Source of the DNA: an uncultured Anaerolineae bacterium
GTDB lineage: Bacteria; Chloroflexota; Anaerolineae; Promineifilales; Promineifilaceae
Direction of reading: 5' to 3'
NCBI GenBank assembly: GCA_905479495.1
Contig: CAJQMR010000009.1
Location: forward strand, 124,001-188,000
DNA: 64,000 nucleotides
Within the stretch, counting starts at the first letter, position 1. Each line of letters begins with the position of its first letter. The position numbers and the translations under genes were made by a program. The notes beneath the pieces were generated by a model that worked only from the letters and a program-made list of their open reading frames with translations, was not told the origin of the DNA and did not search any database. Shown here one piece after another: positions 38,611 to 49,084 of this stretch.

Positions 38611-39945
38611 TTATGATTTTACAACCAACGGTAAATAGATAGGCTTTAGATCATCTAAATAAAACTCGTAAGCGCCAATATCACAGAAACTTTGACTGTC
38701 TCCGTTACCATCATTAGGGCGGATGGCACCACGCTGGTCAATAGAGGGACAAAACGCATTAACACCGTTATCTATCGCTGGGCTATTTGGTAAAAGCGTA
38801 AATACCGGAGCGGCAGTTCCAAAGATAAATAACTTATCCACAAGGGGATCAATATTGTTTTGGTCGCTTAATTGATCAAAATTGCAATCATTACGATCTT
38901 CTAAATTACCACCTCCTGAAATTAACGTGAAGAAATTAAGATCGCTGCAATTGGATTCAAGATTGTTGGCAATAATTGTGTTGTAAACCCAAACTGTCCC
39001 ATCTTGGCTGGCAAGGCCACTGGTTGTTGTAATTGTTGCCGAGTTGTTGGCGATTGTGCTGTTAGTAATTGTCAATACCGGGCTTGGTGTTGTCCCAGAG
39101 TAGTTCCAAATCCCTCCACCAATACCACCAAAGTCTCCTGGTGTTGTTTTGCTTTCATTTCCAGCAATAGTGCTATTAGTTATGGCCATTGAACCAGCAT
39201 TATTTATTCCGCCACCAAACCCAGTAATAAAAGCTTCATTGTCTAAGATTGCACTATTGCTAATTGTCATTGTAGAGTTGGTTGTAACATTCCGAAGACC
39301 GCCACCACCATAGGCGGTTCTATTATTTATAATTGTGCTGTTGGCGATTGTAAATGTGCCATAGTTAGCTATGCCAGCTCCACCATCTGTTGAGTAATTA
39401 TTTCGGATTAATATGTTGTCTGCATAAACGGTTCCAAAGCTTGTACAATTGCAGACTGCACCACCATATGTATCGCCGACATTTGAGGAGCCACTCCCAT
39501 TTTGTAATGTAAGATTTGTCAAGGTAATTGCTTGGCTTGTTGATGGTTGAATATCAAAAATACGCTCTATTGAATTGGCGTCAATGATTGTAGTTACTTT
39601 GTCTTCACCCACTATTGCAACAGAGCTTGTAATATCGATATCGCCTGTTGCCCCAGCTTCTTCAAGGGTCCCGCTTATTGTAAATGTATAGATACCAGAT
39701 GGTAGATTAATTGTTGTGCTATCAGCAGAGGAATTGGCTTCCATAACGGCAGCTCTCAAGGTACAGATGTTATTGTCCACGGCCGTTTCACACACCCCAT
39801 CTCCCGGATTTACATCTACTGCATCTATTGTGCTGTTAACGGTAAAGGTCGCACTGGGACTGGCCTTGGTTTGCAGTGAAGTTATGAATAGGGCAAGAAG
39901 AATAACTGGAACCATAATTGCTAGAAGTAGACGCGAATATTTCAT
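38611..39945 (-). CDS. Secreted beta-helix protein with CSLREA motif (paralogue 1)
   Basis: 444 aa. Signal peptide MKYSRLLLAIMVPVILLALF; then the CSLREA-type segment TVNSTIDAVDVNPGDGVCET ... CTLRAAVMEAN; then right-handed parallel beta-helix repeats (ITNSTIANNSATI, MTISNSAILDNEA) and a final CDIGAYEFYLDD, ending IYLPLVVKS. Start ATG 39945 is preceded by GGAGGGTTCA. Extracellular, possibly polysaccharide-binding or surface protein; no catalytic residues recognised. Close paralogue of the next gene, including the upstream region. Confidence 0.85.
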   Translation of the reverse strand: MKYSRLLLAIMVPVILLALFITSLQTKASPSATFTVNSTIDAVDVNPGDGVCETAVDNNICTLRAAVMEANSSADSTTINLPSGIYTFTISGTLEEAGATGDIDITSSVAIVGEDKVTTIIDANSIERIFDIQPSTSQAITLTNLTLQNGSGSSNVGDTYGGAVCNCTSFGTVYADNILIRNNYSTDGGAGIANYGTFTIANSTIINNRTAYGGGGLRNVTTNSTMTISNSAILDNEAFITGFGGGINNAGSMAITNSTIAGNESKTTPGDFGGIGGGIWNYSGTTPSPVLTITNSTIANNSATITTTSGLASQDGTVWVYNTIIANNLESNCSDLNFFTLISGGGNLEDRNDCNFDQLSDQNNIDPLVDKLFIFGTAAPVFTLLPNSPAIDNGVNAFCPSIDQRGAIRPNDGNGDSQSFCDIGAYEFYLDDLKPIYLPLVVKS

Positions 39946-40036
39946 TGAACCCTCCATGTTTGAGATGATGATTTGAAAATATGTTGCGAAACGGCCGTTC
40001 CTTTTCAACTGGCAAGAACCGCCCGACACGGGAAGG

Positions 40037-40065
40037 ATTATAATTTGGGGGCTGAATGTGAACAA
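40037..40065 (-). promoter_or_regulatory. Promoter of beta-helix paralogue 1
   Basis: Minus strand TTGTTC (40065-40060), 17 bp, TATAAT (40042-40037). Sequence from here to the start codon is almost identical to that before paralogue 2. Confidence 0.65.
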
Positions 40066-40090
40066 TTGACAAAAGTCATTTATTTACAAA

Positions 40091-40120
40091 AAAAACGCGC
40101 CCAGTAATGGGCGCGTTTTT
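40091..40120 (-). terminator. Terminator of beta-helix paralogue 2
   Basis: AAAAACGCGCCC, loop of 6, GGGCGCGTTTTT, directly after the stop at 40122; T8 follows on the minus strand. Confidence 0.85.
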
Positions 40121-40121
40121 A

Positions 40122-42191
40122 TTATGGTTTTAGGATCACGGGTAAGTAAATGTACAGCAATGTGGATGCTCCATATTCCACAGCACCAATGTCGCAAACG
40201 GCCGTTTCATCACTATCGCCATCAAACGGCCGTGGTGCTCCACGTTGATCTAGGGCTGGACAATTGGCGTTATCTCCGGCATCTATGGCAGGGCTATTGG
40301 CCAGAAGGGCATATGTCAGGGTTGAGCCACCATTGTCTGCTAACGGACCCAACAAGGGATTTGTATTAGTGATGTCTCCCGCATTGTTCAAACCGCAGTC
40401 GTTACTATTTTCTAAACTGAAGTAGGTGGTGGTCAAAGGCAAGTTACAGTTTTCTGTGCCATTATTGGCGATAATCGTATTTGTTATAGAGATCGTAGAA
40501 CCGGTATGATAGATACCAGCCCCACTTGGGGCAATGTTTTCGGCCAAAGTAACATTTTCAAGAAATGTGCCGTTGCTTGCTTCACTCCAAATGCCACCTC
40601 CTTGCAACGACGCCGTATTGTTGCTTACCGTCGAGTTGATACTGTCTAGTTGGCCGTAATTCAGGACGCCACCCCCAGTAGCGGCTGAATTGCTATAAAT
40701 TGTGGAGGCAGTTACTTGGGATGTTGAGTTAAGATCAATCAATATTCCACCACCTTCTGTTAGGGCACTATTGTATGAGACGGTGGAATTTTGCATATTT
40801 AGAAGGCTGGAATTGTAAAGACCAATGCCCGCCGCTTCATTAGCTTGATTGTTTTGAATGGTGCTTGTTGTGACGGTTAAAGCAGACCCATCCATATAGA
40901 TACCGCCCCCTTCTTGTGCCAGGTTATCAATAATATTGCTCGTTTCTATTGAAAGTGGCCTTTCACTGTAGATGCCTCCACCTAATGTATTGGCTACATT
41001 GCCCGAAATAATATTGTTGCTTAAGAGTAGTTCGCCATTTATGTAGTAAATTCCTCCACCAACGCCAGCACTGTTGCTATAAATGGTTGAGTCTTTAATA
41101 TCTAAGACCCCATCATCTACATAGATGCCACCTCCGATGGCAAATCCTGATACGGCCGTATTATCGTGAATTGTGCTACTGATCACATGGAAGTTGCCAC
41201 CTTTATTGGCAATGCCGCCACCGCTAAAGGAATTGGTTTTATTAGCATAGATAGCACTATTGGTAACTGTGATAATGCCAAAATTGAACACACCCCCACC
41301 TTCAAGGTACACACTGTTGCTGTAAATGCTGACATTATTTAGGGTTGCTATGCCAGTGGAGGCGTTATCGATACCAGCCCCCGCATAAGAATAATTTCGG
41401 TAAAAATGAGTGCCTTCCACAAAAAGAGTGCCCTGGTTAAGGAGAGTTCCTCCACCTGCAGTGCCCACACTATTAAATGCAATGTCGCCTCCGATGACGA
41501 TTGTGTTTCCCTCATTAAAAATACCATGCCCTGAAGGGCTGGAATTAGTAAGAATATCTGTATTGCTTATTTGCAACGATCCGGCATTATAAATGCCTCC
41601 ACCGCCACTAGGATTATCAGAAATGGAGTTAAAGGATTGATTATGTAACACAATGGAGTCTGAAATAAGTAGGCTGGCTCCCGGAAGGGCATTATAAATA
41701 CCCCCACCTTTGGGGTCTGCTACATCTGAATCTATTTCAAAGCCACCATTCTGTATGGTGAGATTGCTCAGTGAAACAGTTAAATTGGTTGTGCCTGTAA
41801 TATGGAAAACTCGATCAAGTGACGAGCCATCAACAATTGTTGTTGTGGCACCTGCTCCATTAATCGTGAGATCATCAAGAATATCAATATCACCAGAAGC
41901 AGTGGCATCTTCTTCTCGTCCAGCAATCGTCAGAACATAAGTGTTTGCCGGTAAGGAAATGATATCGTTGCCGTTGAGGGCATTGGCCTCCATAACGGCC
42001 GCACGCAATGTACACTGGTTCGCCACGGCCGTTTCACACACACCATCTCCCGGATTTACATCTACTGCATCTATTGTGCTGTTAACGGTAAAGGTAGCAG
42101 TGGGGCTGGCCTTGGTTTGCAGCGAAGTGATGAATAGGGCAAGAAGAATAACTGGAACCATAATTGCTAGAAGTAGACGTGAATATTTCAT
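40122..42191 (-). CDS. Secreted beta-helix protein with CSLREA motif (paralogue 2)
   Basis: 689 aa. Same signal peptide and CSLREA segment as paralogue 1 (TVNSTIDAVDVNPGDGVCET ... CTLRAAVMEAN), with a longer parallel beta-helix made of Asn/Ser/Gly-rich rungs (GGGIYN..., TSTIQNNQANEAAG). Ends CDIGAVEYGASTLLYIYLPVILKP. Start ATG 42191 follows GGAGGGTTTA. The pair arose by tandem duplication covering the promoter, leader and 5' coding part; the helix regions differ in length, as rungs are easily gained or lost. Confidence 0.87.
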   Translation of the reverse strand: MKYSRLLLAIMVPVILLALFITSLQTKASPTATFTVNSTIDAVDVNPGDGVCETAVANQCTLRAAVMEANALNGNDIISLPANTYVLTIAGREEDATASGDIDILDDLTINGAGATTTIVDGSSLDRVFHITGTTNLTVSLSNLTIQNGGFEIDSDVADPKGGGIYNALPGASLLISDSIVLHNQSFNSISDNPSGGGGIYNAGSLQISNTDILTNSSPSGHGIFNEGNTIVIGGDIAFNSVGTAGGGTLLNQGTLFVEGTHFYRNYSYAGAGIDNASTGIATLNNVSIYSNSVYLEGGGVFNFGIITVTNSAIYANKTNSFSGGGIANKGGNFHVISSTIHDNTAVSGFAIGGGIYVDDGVLDIKDSTIYSNSAGVGGGIYYINGELLLSNNIISGNVANTLGGGIYSERPLSIETSNIIDNLAQEGGGIYMDGSALTVTTSTIQNNQANEAAGIGLYNSSLLNMQNSTVSYNSALTEGGGILIDLNSTSQVTASTIYSNSAATGGGVLNYGQLDSINSTVSNNTASLQGGGIWSEASNGTFLENVTLAENIAPSGAGIYHTGSTISITNTIIANNGTENCNLPLTTTYFSLENSNDCGLNNAGDITNTNPLLGPLADNGGSTLTYALLANSPAIDAGDNANCPALDQRGAPRPFDGDSDETAVCDIGAVEYGASTLLYIYLPVILKP

Positions 42192-42282
42192 TAAACCCTC
42201 CAAGTTTGAGATGATGATTTGACAATATGTTGCGAAACGGCCGTTCCTTTTCCACTGGCAAGAACCGCCCGACACGGGAAGA

Positions 42283-42311
42283 ATTATAATTTGGGGGCTG
42301 AATGTGAACAA
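42283..42311 (-). promoter_or_regulatory. Promoter of beta-helix paralogue 2
   Basis: Minus strand TTGTTC (42311-42306), 17 bp, TATAAT (42288-42283), same as for paralogue 1. Confidence 0.65.
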
Positions 42312-42330
42312 TTGACAAAAGTCATTTATT

Positions 42331-42370
42331 TACCAAAAAGCGCGCTCACTGCTGAGCGCGCTTTTTGGTA
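42331..42370 (-). terminator. Terminator of the giant repeat protein gene
   Basis: Perfect 18-bp stem TACCAAAAAGCGCGCTCA / TGAGCGCGCTTTTTGGTA with loop CTGC, 57 nt past the stop at 42427. Confidence 0.85.
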
Positions 42371-42426
42371 AGTCTGTTGTAAATTTGTCTTACAATCAGT
42401 TGTAGATTTGTTGTGAAAGGAATTCG

Positions 42427-45400
42427 TTATTTGATCACGATTGGGATAAACAGTTGATACGAATTAACTGTAACTGTGACTGTGCCGGTGACGGCATCCG
42501 TGCCATCTGACAGCGTGTAGGTGAAGGTTTCAGTGCCGACAAAGCCCGTATTTGGCTTATAGGTGATGGTTGTGCCGTTTGTGGTGGCTGTACCATGCGC
42601 TGGATTGGCTACTGAAGTAATGGTTAAGCGGCTGCCTTCGATGGGATCGCTGTCGTTGTCTAACACCCGGATGATGACTCTGACACCTGCTGTTGTAGCG
42701 GCAGAATCCAAAACCGCCTGTGGCATATCGTTGACAGAAACGATGGTGATATGGACTGTGGCCACATCGGTGAATTCCCCATCGCCCACGGTGTAGGTGA
42801 AGCTGTCTGAGCCATGAAAATTGGGGTCTGGCGTGTATTGAATGGTGCTGCCTTGAATAACGGCCGTGCCATGCCCTGCCTGGCCAACCTGAAGAATTGA
42901 GAGCGAATCATTGTCCGGATCGTCGTCGTTGTTTAAGACATCAATGGTGATAGGTGCATCTTCAACCGTTTCTGGGAAGTCATCATACGCATTGGGTGCG
43001 GCATTGCTGCTGCTTACAGAGATTGTGATGGTGACCTGGGCAGAATCAGTTCCCCCATGCCCATCGCTGATGGTGTAAGTAAAAGTTTCGGTACCGACGA
43101 AGGTGAGGGCCGCTGTGTAGTCGATTTGGTTGTTGTTGATAACGGCCGTTCCCCCATTATCTGGCGTGCTAACTTCAATGATAGAAAGGACATCGTTAGC
43201 ATCTGGATCGGTATCGTTTGCTAAAACATCAATGTGAATTGTTCCTCCGTTTTCGGGAATGGAATCGCTGTCCTGGTTGGCGGTTGGCGTATCGTTAACG
43301 GCGGTTACTTCGATGGTGACCGTAGCGGTGTCGCTGCCCCCGTTGCCATCGCTGATGGTGTAGGTGAAGGTTTCACTGCCGAAAAAGTTAGGGGCGGGCG
43401 TGTAGTCGATTTGATTGTTGTTGATGACGGCCGTTCCGCCATTCCCAGGTGTGCCAACTTGCGTGATGGATAAAACATCAAATGCTTCTGGATCTGTATC
43501 GTTTGCCAGAACATCAATTTGAATCGTGCTGCTATCTTCGGCAATGATCCCGGTATCTTCATTGGCCGTTGGCGCATCATTGACTGCGGTTACGCTGATG
43601 GATACGGTTGCGGTGTGGCTGCCACCGTGGTCATCGCTAACAGTGTAGGTGAAGGTCTCGCTGCCAAAAAAGTTAGGGGCTGGTGTATAGTCGATTTGGT
43701 CGTTGTTGACGACGGCCGTTCCGCCGTTATCCGTTGCGCTCACAGCGGTGATTGAGAGCACATCACCCGCATCTAAATCAGTGTCATTGGCTAAGACGTC
43801 AATTTGGATAGGCCCATTGTCTTCTAACATAGAGGTGCTGTCATCATTGGCAACGGGTGCGTCATTAACGGCCGTTACGCTCACAGTTACCGTTGCAGTT
43901 GCTGTGCCGCCGTGGCCATCGCTCACGGTGTAGGTGAAGACTTCTGTGCCGAAGAAATTAGCTGTTGGCGTGTAGTCGATCTGGTTACTGTTGATGACGG
44001 CCGTTCCGCCATTATCAGGTGTTCCGACTGTGGTAACAACAAGCGTATCTCCGGCATTTGGGTCTGTATCATTAGCCAAAACATCGATCTGAATGGTGCT
44101 GCTATCTTCAGTGACTGTCTCACTGTCATTGTTAGCGGTTGGTGCGTCATTGATTTCGGTCACGGTGATGGTTACAAGGCCGATAGCCGTGCCGCCGTGG
44201 CCATCGCTCACGGTGTAAGTGAAGGTTTCCGTGCCGAAGAAGTTGGTTGCTGGCGTGTAATCGATTTGGTTGCTGTTGAGAACGGCCGTTCCCCCATTGT
44301 CTGTTGTGCCAACAGAATCGATAGAGAGAACATCACCTGTATCTGGATCGTCGTCATTGGCCAGGACATCTATTTGAATGGTGCTGCTGTTTTCTATAAC
44401 CGTGTCGTTATCGTCATTGGCCACTGGGGTATCGTTTACGGCCGTTACGTCAATCGTCACCGTGGCGCTGTCGCTGCCGCCGTTGCCGTCGCTGATGGTG
44501 TACGTGAAGGTTTCCGTACCGAAGAAGTTGAAGGCTGGCGTGTAATCGATCTGATTGCTGTTGATGATGGCGCTTCCGCCATTATCCGGTGTGCCAACGG
44601 AAGTGATTGTCAAAACATCGCTTGTGTCGAGGTCAGTGTCGTTGGCCAGCACGTCAAATGAAGTTGTGCCGCTGTCTTCAGCCACGGTTTTGTTGTCATC
44701 GTTGGCGGCGGGGGCGTCGTTGACGGCCGTTACGTTAATGGTCACAGTGGCAGTGTCAGTGCCGCCGTTGCCGTCGCTGATGGTGTAAGTGAAGGTTTCC
44801 GTACCGAAGAAGTTGAGGGCTGGGGTGTAATCGATCTGGTTATTGTTGAGAACGGCCGTTCCGCCATTATCTGGTGTGTTAACGGAAGTGATTGTCAAAA
44901 CATCGCTTGTGTCGAGGTCAGTGTCATTGGCCAAAACGTCCAGTGAAGTTGTACCATTATCTTCGGCTAAGGTCTGGTTGTCATCGTTGGCAGTTGGGGC
45001 ATCGTTCATTGCGGTGACGTCAATCGTTACAGTGGCGCTGTCGCTGCCACCGTTGCCATCGCTGATGGTGTAAGTAAAGATTTCCGTACCGAAGAAGTTG
45101 TCTGCTGGGGTGTAGTCGATCTGGTTGTTGTTGAGTACGGCCGTTCCGCCATTATCCGTTGAACCAACGATGGTGATGGCAAGCGTATCCCCGGAATTAG
45201 GGTCCGTGTCGTTGGCTAAAACGTCAAAGGAAGTTGTGCCACTGTCCTCGGCTACGGTTGGGTTATCATCGTTGGCGGTTGGGGCGTCATTCACTTCGGT
45301 GATAGTAATGGTCACCATGCCGGTGTCTGTGCCGCCATTGCCATCGCTGACAATGTAGGTGAAGATTTCGGTGCCAAAGAAGTTAGCCGCCGGGGTGTAG

Positions 45401-47751
45401 TCGATTTGGTTACTGTTGATGACGGCCGTTCCGCCATTATCTGTCGCCCCAACCGAATCGATGGAGAGAGTATCACCACTATCTGGGTCGGAGTCATTGG
45501 CCAGGACATCTATTTGAATGGTGCTGCTGTTTTCAATAACTGTGTCGCTGTCATCGTTGGCTGTGGGGGTGTCATTGACAGATGTCACCGTAATGCTAAC
45601 GGTTGCGGAGCTGCTGTCGCCATTGCCATCACTCATGGTGTAAGTGAAGGTTTCCGTGCCGAAGAAGTTGAGGGCTGGCGTGTAGTCGATTTGGTTGCTG
45701 TTGAGTACGGCCGTTCCGCCATTGTCCGTTGTCCCTACAGCAATAATGGAGAGTGTGTCTGCTGTGTCGGGGTCAGTGTCGTTGGCCAGCACATCAAAAG
45801 AGGTTGTGCCGCTGTCTTCCGCCACGGTTTTGTTGTCATCGTTGGCGGCTGGGGTGTCGTTAACGGCCGTTACGTCAATGGTCACGGTGGCGGTGTCGCT
45901 GCCGCCGTTGCCGTCGCTGATGGTGTAAGTGAAGGTTTCCGTACCGAAGAAGTTGAGGGCTGGCGTGTAGTCGATTTGGTTGCTGTTGAGAACGGCCGTT
46001 CCGCCATTATCCGGTGTGCCAACGGAAGTGATTGTCAAAACATCGCTTGTGTCGGGGTCAGTGTCGTTGGCCAGGACATTAAATGAAGTTGTGCCGCTGT
46101 CTTCAGCCACGGTTTTGTTGTCATCAGTGGCGGTTGGGGCGTCGTTGACGGCCGTTACGTCAATGGTCACGGTGGCGGTGTCGCTGCCGCCGTTGCCGTC
46201 GCTGATGGTGTATGTGAAGGTTTCCGTACCGAAGAAGTTGTCTGCTGGGGTGTAGTCGATCTGGTTGCTGTTGAGAACGGCCGTTCCGCCATTGTCAGTC
46301 GTACCAACAGCAGAGATAGTAAGCGTGTCTCCTGTATCTGGATCGGTGTCGTTGGCCAGCACATCAAATGAAGTGGTGCCGCTGTCTTCGGCCACTGTCT
46401 CATTGTCGTTGTTGGCTGCCGGAGCTGTGTTGATGTGCAGCGTCGTGAAATTTCGCGTAGACGATTGGCTGCTGCCGGTTGTGTTACTGGCAATAATTGC
46501 CCAATAATAAATTGTGTCTGAGGTCAACCCGCTGGCATCATAAGTTGTTGAAACGATGCCGGATTGGTCGATGAGCGGGGCGCTTAAATCCGAATTTTCT
46601 GAGACGAGCAGCTGATAAGAATCTGCTCCCGTCGTCGCCTGCCAGGAAAAAGTCGGCGACAAAGCAACATCAGCTTCATCCTGAACTGGTGAAGTGAGCA
46701 AAGGTGTGTCTGGTAGCGGTATTGGCTGATTGCTGCTGGTAGTGAATGTCCATTGCTCAGACCAGTTGCTGTCATTCGTGTTATGGGCAATCACAATCCA
46801 GAAGTAAGTATCCTCTGGCAGTTGTGCGCTGGGTGTAAATGAGGTTTCTGTAATGCCGGTTGGGTTTAGAACCAGGGAGCCCATCGCGGCATCGTTGCCA
46901 ACGCGCAGTTCATAATAATCTGCATTGGCGGAAGCTTCCCAGGAAAACGTGGGCGTTTGCGATACGGTTGAACCGTTAAGCGGAGCCGTTTGCACTGGAA
47001 TGTCTGGCGAGGTTGTGGCTCCTGCACCAAGCAAAATGCCTGCGTAAGGTGCTGTACCAATATCGTAATTGCTTCCGTTGGGCGTAAACAGAATCACCTG
47101 TTCGCTGGAGAGCGACTCGGTATCAAAGGAAAACTTGGTGCCTTGCTTGCCATTACTGTTTTCTAATCCAACGGTTGCTGATGCGCCGTGCGTCTGGGGA
47201 TTACTACCAACGAGATAGCGATATTGAAACTGAATCGTATTGCTGCTCTCATTTAAGATGACAAAAAATGTTCCCAAAGGTGATGGATCATTCCAAAAGC
47301 CAACATTTGTAAACTGCACAACCAACTGGCGATTGGGTGCGGTTCCAATGGTTTGATAATAGATATATTCACCTGAGGAATTGTAGACAGTTAAGTCATC
47401 CCAGAATGGGGCGATGTAGTTGTCTGGATTTGTCGTATCATCAATATCATCATTCGTGTAGTCGGCGAGATCGCGACCGTCGAAAGAGATATACCCATTG
47501 GAGGAAACGTAAAATTCACTATATGAATTCCCAAAAAATGTGAAATCAAAGCCAATGGGTAAGGCTGCTGAACCCACGTCGTCACCGTTTACACCCGTAT
47601 CGATGCCTTGATAATAGGTTTCTGGTGGCAAGTCTGCACGTGCGGCCGGTACGGCCGTATAAGCAAAAACCAATGCCAGGAGGAAGATAACCAAAATCAG
47701 TTTAGAATATGTGAGGATAACTTCTTTTAATTTAAAATTTAATGTTTTCAT
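42427..47751 (-). CDS. Giant secreted repeat protein with 14 cadherin/Ig-like (tandem-95) repeats
   Basis: 1774 aa. Signal peptide ending near residue 39 (AVPAARA). A NIDO-like N-terminal domain (FDFTFFGNSYSEFYVSSNGY, PFWDDL) is followed by two fibronectin III-like domains (PTFSWEASANADYYELRVGN; PTFSWQATTGADSYQLLVSE) and 14 repeats of about 95 aa starting NDAPTANDD...VAEDSGTTSFDVLANDTD and ending GTETFTYTISDGNGGSDTATVTI. Asp/Asn-rich loops suggest calcium binding. The tail is YQLFIPIVIK. Likely a surface adhesin or matrix protein. Several repeats are nearly identical in DNA, so repeat number may vary or be misassembled. Confidence 0.9.
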   Translation of the reverse strand: MKTLNFKLKEVILTYSKLILVIFLLALVFAYTAVPAARADLPPETYYQGIDTGVNGDDVGSAALPIGFDFTFFGNSYSEFYVSSNGYISFDGRDLADYTNDDIDDTTNPDNYIAPFWDDLTVYNSSGEYIYYQTIGTAPNRQLVVQFTNVGFWNDPSPLGTFFVILNESSNTIQFQYRYLVGSNPQTHGASATVGLENSNGKQGTKFSFDTESLSSEQVILFTPNGSNYDIGTAPYAGILLGAGATTSPDIPVQTAPLNGSTVSQTPTFSWEASANADYYELRVGNDAAMGSLVLNPTGITETSFTPSAQLPEDTYFWIVIAHNTNDSNWSEQWTFTTSSNQPIPLPDTPLLTSPVQDEADVALSPTFSWQATTGADSYQLLVSENSDLSAPLIDQSGIVSTTYDASGLTSDTIYYWAIIASNTTGSSQSSTRNFTTLHINTAPAANNDNETVAEDSGTTSFDVLANDTDPDTGDTLTISAVGTTDNGGTAVLNSNQIDYTPADNFFGTETFTYTISDGNGGSDTATVTIDVTAVNDAPTATDDNKTVAEDSGTTSFNVLANDTDPDTSDVLTITSVGTPDNGGTAVLNSNQIDYTPALNFFGTETFTYTISDGNGGSDTATVTIDVTAVNDTPAANDDNKTVAEDSGTTSFDVLANDTDPDTADTLSIIAVGTTDNGGTAVLNSNQIDYTPALNFFGTETFTYTMSDGNGDSSSATVSITVTSVNDTPTANDDSDTVIENSSTIQIDVLANDSDPDSGDTLSIDSVGATDNGGTAVINSNQIDYTPAANFFGTEIFTYIVSDGNGGTDTGMVTITITEVNDAPTANDDNPTVAEDSGTTSFDVLANDTDPNSGDTLAITIVGSTDNGGTAVLNNNQIDYTPADNFFGTEIFTYTISDGNGGSDSATVTIDVTAMNDAPTANDDNQTLAEDNGTTSLDVLANDTDLDTSDVLTITSVNTPDNGGTAVLNNNQIDYTPALNFFGTETFTYTISDGNGGTDTATVTINVTAVNDAPAANDDNKTVAEDSGTTSFDVLANDTDLDTSDVLTITSVGTPDNGGSAIINSNQIDYTPAFNFFGTETFTYTISDGNGGSDSATVTIDVTAVNDTPVANDDNDTVIENSSTIQIDVLANDDDPDTGDVLSIDSVGTTDNGGTAVLNSNQIDYTPATNFFGTETFTYTVSDGHGGTAIGLVTITVTEINDAPTANNDSETVTEDSSTIQIDVLANDTDPNAGDTLVVTTVGTPDNGGTAVINSNQIDYTPTANFFGTEVFTYTVSDGHGGTATATVTVSVTAVNDAPVANDDSTSMLEDNGPIQIDVLANDTDLDAGDVLSITAVSATDNGGTAVVNNDQIDYTPAPNFFGSETFTYTVSDDHGGSHTATVSISVTAVNDAPTANEDTGIIAEDSSTIQIDVLANDTDPEAFDVLSITQVGTPGNGGTAVINNNQIDYTPAPNFFGSETFTYTISDGNGGSDTATVTIEVTAVNDTPTANQDSDSIPENGGTIHIDVLANDTDPDANDVLSIIEVSTPDNGGTAVINNNQIDYTAALTFVGTETFTYTISDGHGGTDSAQVTITISVSSSNAAPNAYDDFPETVEDAPITIDVLNNDDDPDNDSLSILQVGQAGHGTAVIQGSTIQYTPDPNFHGSDSFTYTVGDGEFTDVATVHITIVSVNDMPQAVLDSAATTAGVRVIIRVLDNDSDPIEGSRLTITSVANPAHGTATTNGTTITYKPNTGFVGTETFTYTLSDGTDAVTGTVTVTVNSYQLFIPIVIK
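42900..46430. repeat. Tandem array of about 285-bp coding repeats
   Basis: Repeats of 95 codons within the giant gene. The string ACGGCCGTTCC recurs with 285-bp spacing (about 43997, 44282, 44852, 45137, 45422, 45707, 45992, 46277), encoding the TAV of GGTAVLNSNQ. Units between 44.2 and 46.4 kb are the most alike, pointing to recent unequal exchange or gene conversion there. Confidence 0.9.
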
Positions 47752-47941
47752 GACATCCCCTGATAAAACTTCCTATACAACTTCTTAATCAATAAAACTA
47801 CCTATACAACTCGTAATAAATTAACTCTTAAGGGTGATCTTAAGAATGGTCGCTTGCAGAAATTGTTACATATCGGTTTTTTGAAACCAAAGTACTATCC
47901 TTACATTGGACTGGCATTTTCTCGAACAAAGAAAACAAAAA

Positions 47942-47977
47942 ACCCTTTGCCTTATAAAAGATTATGGGGCAAAGGGT
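47942..47977 (-). terminator. Terminator past the beta-helix remnant
   Basis: ACCCTTTGCC ... GGCAAAGGGT with a 16-nt loop, followed on the minus strand by a T-rich run (GGGTTTTTTGTTTTC). Confidence 0.75.
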
Positions 47978-48029
47978 CTTGAGTTTCTTGTGGGTGTTTT
48001 ACCACGTATTCTGTTGTAGCGAGCCTGGT

Positions 48030-48221
48030 TTATGGTTTTGCAACTATTGGCAAATAGATGTACGTGATAGGCAAAGCACCGTATTCAACTGCACCAATAT
48101 CGCAAACGGCCGTTTCGTCACCATCGCCATTCATGATCGGTTTTGGATCGATTGCTGGATATACTGCAAAATGGTTGACGCCAACGGCCGTTCCATAGAA
48201 AATGTCCCCAGGCGACAACAC
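48030..48221 (-). pseudogene. C-terminal remnant of a third beta-helix/CSLREA paralogue
   Basis: 63 codons ending DGDETAVCDIGAVEYGALPITYIYLPIVAKP, almost the same as the end of paralogue 2 (DSDETAVCDIGAVEYGASTLLYIYLPVILKP). No signal peptide, CSLREA segment or beta-helix rungs upstream; the PrsW-like gene begins just beyond. A terminator is still present downstream. I read it as what is left after deletion of a third copy; it could be a very short expressed peptide but no ribosome binding site is clear. Confidence 0.7.
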
Positions 48222-48241
48222 AACATTTAGGAGGTGGCTTT

Positions 48242-49084
48242 ATGCGTGGACCCTGGCAACAGCGCAGCAGTTTGTGGCAAGCAGACATTGCGTCTATCGT
48301 GCTGCTCATCTTGTTTGTACTGGCCATTTTTGGCCTGGAAGCGTGGCTTCAACCCCAATTTACCCCCACAACACTTGTGTTAACTGGCATTCTTATCACC
48401 CTGGTACCGGCCATCGTCTGGCTGGCATTTTTTTACCGGCGAGATCGATTGGAACCGGAACCAAAGCATCTCATTGTGCAAATGGTGATTTTGGGTGGCC
48501 TTTTGGCCAGTGCCATTGGTATTCCGGTGGTAGAAGGCTTGTTTGCCGTACCCAACTGGTTAAGCGATAGTCCCGCCTGGGCCCAGTTGTTGGGTGGCTT
48601 CCTTATTGTGGGCATGACCCAAGAATTCCTGAAATATGCGGCCGTTCGCTTTTCGGTCTATTATGCGGCCGATTTTGATGAAGCGATTGACGGCATTATT
48701 TACACAACGGCCGTTGCCGTTGGGTTTGCCGTGGTGCTCAACATTAACTTTGTGGTTAGTTCAGGCGGCGTAAATTTAGGCTCTGGGGCGATTCGCATTG
48801 TGCTTACCACATTGGCACAGGCCAGCTTTGCCGGGGTGGTGGGCTACTTCCTGGGACGAATGAAGTTTGAGAAACGGCCGCTTTGGTGGATGCCGCTTGG
48901 GCTAACCATTGCCGCTGCGCTCAACAGTCTTTTCTACTTCTTGCGCGGTACCTTAAGCCAGGGCGGCTTGGGCGCTGTCAACAGTTGGGTAGGCTTGGTG
49001 CTGGCCGCGCTGCTGGCCGGTGGAATCACCTGGTTTCTCTCCCGCTCCATCCAGCACGATCTGGTTATGCACGGAGGTGATTGA
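48242..49084 (+). CDS. PrsW-like intramembrane protease family protein, divergent motifs
   Basis: 280 aa, about eight membrane spans. The PrsW signature is present but altered: MTQEFLKYAAV in place of EExxK (one Glu missing) and DEAIDGIIYTTAVAVGFAVVLN in place of the DGxxYGxxxGxGFAxxEN pattern (Glu-Asn lost). So it may not be proteolytic, unlike the intact paralogue at 55743. AGGAGG lies 7 bases before the ATG. First of three closely spaced genes with a membrane protein and a secreted protease. Confidence 0.72.
   Translation: MRGPWQQRSSLWQADIASIVLLILFVLAIFGLEAWLQPQFTPTTLVLTGILITLVPAIVWLAFFYRRDRLEPEPKHLIVQMVILGGLLASAIGIPVVEGLFAVPNWLSDSPAWAQLLGGFLIVGMTQEFLKYAAVRFSVYYAADFDEAIDGIIYTTAVAVGFAVVLNINFVVSSGGVNLGSGAIRIVLTTLAQASFAGVVGYFLGRMKFEKRPLWWMPLGLTIAAALNSLFYFLRGTLSQGGLGAVNSWVGLVLAALLAGGITWFLSRSIQHDLVMHGGD

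Follow-up and report, generated by a model that had tools for sequence, protein, structure and literature searches.

Why do several secreted proteins, encoded close together in the genome of an uncultured Anaerolineae bacterium, end in almost the same few residues? Across the window (the whole stretch of DNA analysed here, 64 kb in length), the pattern [YF][LI]P-hhh-K stands at the end of three intact genes and one remnant. The four tails, IYLPLVVKS, IYLPVILKP, LFIPIVIK and IYLPIVAKP, are present on the minus strand just as a preliminary description of this DNA had reported them. When a looser version of the motif was run over the whole window as a regular expression, it ended nine frames; these four are the clear cases, and the other five are frames of 21-39 aa. 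The features are the following.

38611..39945, minus strand: secreted beta-helix protein with a signal peptide, a CSLREA-like start and a choice_anch_Q end (reading frame open to 40065; ATG likely at 39945)
38614..38640, minus strand: YLP-box tail IYLPLVVKS of the preceding protein (read from the sequence; NF053834, 12.2 bits)
40122..42191, minus strand: secreted beta-helix protein, paralogue of 38611, with a choice_anch_Q end (frame 40122-42311; ATG likely at 42191)
40125..40151, minus strand: YLP-box tail IYLPVILKP (regular expression and context)
42427..47751, minus strand: secreted tandem-95/Big_9 repeat protein of 1774 aa (family matches)
42430..42453, minus strand: YLP-box-like tail LFIPIVIK of this giant repeat protein (regular expression and context; unstructured coil in AlphaFold2)
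48030..48239, minus strand: remnant of a third choice_anch_Q-type protein, a 69-aa frame without a start codon whose end is nearly identical to that of 40122-42311
48033..48059, minus strand: tail IYLPIVAKP of the remnant (regular expression and context)

Genes 38611 and 40122 are paralogues that have in common a CSLREA-type N-terminus, a beta-helix-like middle and a choice_anch_Q C-terminus, and both score over the cut-off of 25 of the choice_anch_Q model NF041518 (58.6 and 88.3 bits, respectively). In profile searches the remnant gave no family match, and the choice_anch_Q domain was absent from the giant protein. As 38611, 40122 and the remnant are related, these three tails partly reflect shared ancestry, and within the window the unrelated kinds of protein having the tail are two only, the choice_anch_Q type and the tandem-95/Big_9 type. 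The preliminary description had called the proteins otherwise different and had set shared ancestry aside. The first statement is right for the tandem-95/Big_9 protein but not for the three related sequences; the second is borne out by the unrelated folds of the wider survey described below. It is this survey, rather than the window alone, that demonstrates the fold independence of the tag. The near-identical starts of the tandem paralogues (38611-42311), together with the remnant beyond the giant gene, look like recent duplication and decay.

The window tails are assigned to a kind that is already catalogued, the 38611 tail by model score and the other three by regular expression and context. 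NCBIfam 20.0 holds two models of the motif, NF053834 (ultrashort_CTERM) and NF050076 (sort_motif_YLP, 'YLP-box putative sorting motif'). The 38611 tail lies over the NF053834 cut-off of 10 and, at 12.0 bits, under the NF050076 cut-off of 15; the tails of 40122, 42427 and the remnant gave no match to either model at E <= 10, in a program (HMMER) whose filters drop weak matches. Of 14 control genomes searched in six frames, 11 had matches over the NF053834 cut-off, so that a value of 10 is permissive, and 2 had matches over that of NF050076. A literature search on the motif, on the NCBI names and on Chloroflexi sorting signals, covering few subscription journals, found no paper. What is new beyond the catalogue is the N-terminal use of the motif, its lack of a helix, the lack of matching enzymes and its swap with other anchors.

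We then asked which proteins carry the tail in the bacterium's own genome (7.28 Mb, 52 contigs; listed completeness 95%, contamination 7.4%). A strict DNA pattern matched seven times, and six of the matches end long, varied frames that read as secreted. The motif ends 19 of the 657 called genes of a first sample of 864 kb (sample 1), compared with 0-5 genes for each of five altered motifs; in an independent sample of 800 kb (sample 2), searched with the regular expression unchanged, it ends 9 of 618 called genes, the altered motifs giving 0-2 each. Protein classes, which were set by simple custom rules and not by SignalP, divide these tails very unevenly. Secreted-type proteins carry them in 17/67 cases in sample 1 and 7/57 in sample 2, lipoproteins in 1/40 and 0/35, cytoplasmic proteins (those without an N-terminal hydrophobic stretch) in 1/368 and 0/317, membrane proteins with at least two later helices in 0/100 and 1/122, proteins with one later helix in 0/65 and 0/67, and proteins with an N-terminal helix or of other kinds in 0/17 and 1/20. 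In sample 1 the secreted class differs from lipoproteins (Fisher, p=0.0024) and from cytoplasmic proteins (p=4e-14). The genome scan proposed in the preliminary description thus finds the motif on other exported proteins and does not find it equally in cytoplasmic ones.

Among proteins of at least 300 aa in sample 1, 17 of 38 secreted-type proteins and 1 of 25 lipoproteins carry the tail. Roughly one in two large proteins of the secreted type is thus without the tag, which counts against the anchoring reading, and its scarcity on lipoproteins may reflect protein type, since lipoproteins are often another kind of protein (solute-binding). The one tail in the lipoprotein class, C6:30831, fits a loose lipobox rule, but its cysteine lies within a long hydrophobic stretch and it may be misclassed; the sole cytoplasmic match, C10:307748 in sample 1, reads as chance. 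Genome-wide there are about 40 candidate copies, a generous count that includes weak matches to NF050076 and NF053834. One very small secreted protein (G000:C5:309960-310181, L331), 73 aa as called, has the tail at its end and might be a subunit or a partner.

Beyond this genome, the exact-end DNA pattern is present in 68 of 301 Chloroflexota genomes, with a summed count of 148 vs 71 for a reversed-pattern control. Six Chloroflexota families account for 95 vs 16 of these and the rest of the 301 genomes for 53 vs 55, a split made after the counts were seen. In 15 Chloroflexota genomes, mostly chosen for a tail-bearing record, the pattern outnumbered the control by 79 to 5, and in 35 genomes of other phyla it stood at 40 vs 30, near background; these 50 genomes were reached via named records and their totals summed by hand. 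The tail is enriched in Chloroflexota and near background elsewhere. Small samples of other genomes gave five tails in G238 (300 kb), one in G168 (300 kb) and none in G005 or G068 (100 kb each). Two of the five in G238 look like chance, two are of the secreted class and one is on a 3836-aa protein called as membrane; in G168 the tail ended one gene vs five for an altered motif, with no excess over the control.

In 60 fetched stretches the pattern matched 66 times, 13 times in frames of <100 aa and 8 times in frames that run off. By our custom rules the remaining 45 long closed frames comprise 35 with a secretory signal, three that fit the lipobox rule only, four with another N-terminal hydrophobic stretch and three with none. 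One possibility is mere shared ancestry, the tail being what remains of a C-terminal domain once held in common, or of gene fusion. The window's two beta-helix proteins and the remnant are indeed paralogues, but tandem-95, BNR-like, PLD, FG-GAP and CAP proteins, among others, have the same tag, and it occurs at either end. Its distribution over unrelated folds contradicts this explanation, which is hardly tenable.

The motif itself consists of an aromatic residue, L/I/V/M, P, three hydrophobic residues and usually K or R. In the window the tails stop 0-1 residues past the K, without a membrane helix or a basic cluster, and the same is true of the wider set. Among 53 frames whose composition was analysed, the last position is R in 42, K in 11 and Q in none, though the pattern permitted Q. 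Only 4 of these 53 tails come after a linker rich in P/T/S/A, such as would span a wall, which counts against the anchoring reading. In an AlphaFold2 model of the last two repeats and tail of the giant protein (mean pLDDT 80, 11 rows), the final strand extends to residue 180; residues 181-192 are coil, with 187-191 at pLDDT <50. As modelled, the tail is an appendage, detached from that strand of the repeat domain. The model of the 38611 protein has pLDDT <50 from about residue 333 on, too weak near the C-terminus to inform on the tail.

The motif is not confined to the C-terminus. An NF050076 search of the own genome gave 43 matches at E <= 10, and the best 30 of them comprise 21 C-terminal copies, 6 N-terminal copies lying within 34-69 aa of the start of a signal peptide (L308, L313, L322, L328, L329 and L332) and 3 others, namely one labelled N-terminal by the automatic rule but lying 27 residues from the end of an apparent sensor-kinase frame (L318) and two in frames of <100 aa (L326, L333). 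In two proteins of the own genome, a regular-expression scan away from the C-terminus likewise found copies just behind the signal peptide. Visual selection among 30 rows, mostly membrane segments or chance frames, added further N-terminal copies in L130 and L168 and a pair in L215. Wherever the end of an N-tagged protein could be read (L308, L322, L328, L332, L130, L168 and L030, the last being the full copy of L329), the C-terminal tail was absent; the L313 frame runs off, and the ends of L215 were left out. The folds that follow an N-terminal tag include FG-GAP and CAP and, by eye, expansin-like and glycoside-hydrolase-like proteins. In C3:94539 (L290) the copy is internal, with a repeat region on one side and another domain, some 175 residues long, on the other. 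About 1.5 kb past the end of the window, L308 (G000:C9:189478) is an expansin-like secreted protein, as judged by eye, with an N-terminal YLP-box.

The NCBIfam YLP-box is the same motif as the one described here, and several own-genome tails and N-terminal copies exceed a curated cut-off; it differs in that one model name says C-terminal, whereas N-terminal copies make up about one fifth of the best matches in the own genome. This N-terminal use appears previously undescribed. It means that a free C-terminus cannot be required for recognition, and that removal of a tail from the C-terminus cannot be how the tag works in general. The proposal that the tail is a sorting or anchoring signal fits its presence on secreted proteins of unrelated folds and the NCBI wording 'putative sorting motif', but has to be widened, as the signal is not strictly C-terminal.

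Could the tail be the substrate of a dedicated enzyme, whether sortase-like, exosortase-like or of a new type, which would cleave it and attach the protein to the envelope? Like the tags of LPXTG/sortase, PEP-CTERM/exosortase, GlyGly-CTERM/rhombosortase and MYXO-CTERM/myxosortase, the YLP-box stands at the ends of many secreted proteins without kinship, with several such proteins in a genome, and it too is swapped after the same domain (choice_anch_Q). Its order of LP, hydrophobic residues and a basic residue resembles a miniature LPXTG or PEP-CTERM signal, and one NCBIfam name is ultrashort_CTERM. Unlike those tags, it is without a helix and also occurs at the N-terminus. In the accessible text of PMC1569441 and PMC11980579, LPXTG, PEP-CTERM and their kin combine a motif, a membrane helix and a basic cluster, so that the YLP-box lacks a part common to these known tags. 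Copies at the N-terminus, moreover, could not be joined via a new C-terminus without loss of the protein body.

We surveyed the machinery in 16 tail-rich and 20 tail-poor genomes. Sortase genes occur in 14/16 tail-rich genomes, as an enzyme substrate would lead one to expect, yet also in 16/20 tail-poor genomes, and they are absent from G168, which has the most pattern matches of the 301 genomes, and from G200; the 16 tail-rich genomes are listed as at least 92% complete, at which level absence from a single genome is not proof. Exosortase was detected in only 1/16 tail-rich genomes and SLH in 0/16. Omp85 (PF01103) was detected in 0/36 genomes, with 7 of 14 controls positive. The distribution of SLH, exosortase, sortase or Omp85 does not track the tail, and neither an outer membrane nor the tested C-terminal tag enzymes (exosortase, sortase) account for the motif. 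Taken together, an enzyme substrate seems to us unlikely.

A recurrent partner was also absent from the called genes that flank the tail genes of sample 1 (two per side, read by eye). In the window a PrsW-family intramembrane protease gene (48242-49084) adjoins the remnant in divergent orientation and looks unrelated to the tail; no PrsW-family gene was seen by tail genes outside the window, in the same two called genes per side. A partner protease or anchor co-occurring with the tail, which the preliminary description had suggested looking for, was thus not found among PrsW-family proteins, exosortase, sortase, SLH or Omp85.

Other anchors take the place of the motif in relatives of tagged proteins. 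The domain of the N-tagged protein C6:191856 recurs in three other matches, each with another device as read by eye: a lipobox on C10, LysM-like repeats in G144, and a LysM-like repeat with a C-terminal membrane helix on C5. For choice_anch_Q proteins, 28 closed, unmasked Chloroflexota frames (excluding L081, which is masked at its end, and 8 frames not closed within their locus) comprise 10 with the tail by the strict regular expression, 1 SLH-like, 2 with a helix and 15 others, some of which look like near tail variants (L086, L089, L130).

The YLP-box is a linear peptide of 7-9 residues at one free end of mature secreted Chloroflexota proteins. With a probability of roughly 0.45, we propose that it is a docking peptide, usable from either end, that holds secreted proteins at the monoderm envelope. 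A tagged protein would first leave the cell via Sec export; the peptide would then dock non-covalently on a putative envelope receptor (a wall or surface-layer protein), perhaps by strand addition to a beta-sheet. The protein would thereby be kept at the surface of a cell without an outer membrane, the YLP-box taking the role held elsewhere by a lipid, LysM or SLH domains or a membrane helix. SLH and LysM provide non-covalent retention at the wall through folded domains of about 40-60 residues. They are the alternative devices in relatives of tagged proteins, and the YLP-box differs from them in having only 7-9 residues.

A tag that is found almost only on secreted, non-lipidated proteins, enzyme-like ones included, could also be an export or release signal for some other secretion machine, with the tagged proteins leaving the cell. 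Yet these proteins already have Sec-type signal peptides by our custom rule, their relatives have retention devices in the same place, and the Omp85 survey gives no indication of an outer membrane that they would have to pass; we regard such a role as distinctly unlikely. The type IX secretion C-terminal domain and the outer-membrane beta-signal also present a hydrophobic C-terminal strand, but both need an outer membrane. Alternatively, the hydrophobic strand could be a self-association element, the tags pairing mutually or with a fibre to form an extracellular matrix. Its beta-prone sequence at flexible ends would suit this, and the tagged 73-aa mini-protein could be a subunit; the strict P and the terminal K/R, by comparison, look like specific recognition, and we judge self-association improbable.

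Returning to the docking peptide, it is conceivable, though we hold this more tentatively, that the Chloroflexota possess a separate envelope-retention system with one short peptide at either end, a dedicated receptor and a non-covalent hold. To our knowledge, no short, helix-free, position-free surface tag is known from other monoderm bacteria. If true, the docking tag would offer a way into the question of how a one-membrane phylum retains large proteins at the cell surface. The existence of N-terminal copies restricts the possible mechanisms and permits a simple test, by moving the tag between ends.

In other groups choice_anch_Q proteins carry the tail at none of 30 closed frames (13 more run off). 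Four of the 30 end in a C-terminal helix, among them ends that we take to be of the IPTL-CTERM type. G112, of the same class as our genome, has 51 SLH matches, several in choice_anch_Q match regions, and no exact-end tail match. The choice_anch_Q proteins of L129, L117 and L100 (Dokdonella, a Proteobacteria MAG and Marinicella) end in or near short helix-free sequences such as RIFADGFE, RIFDNGFD and IFIDGFE, and such ends are perhaps a second ultrashort end tag.
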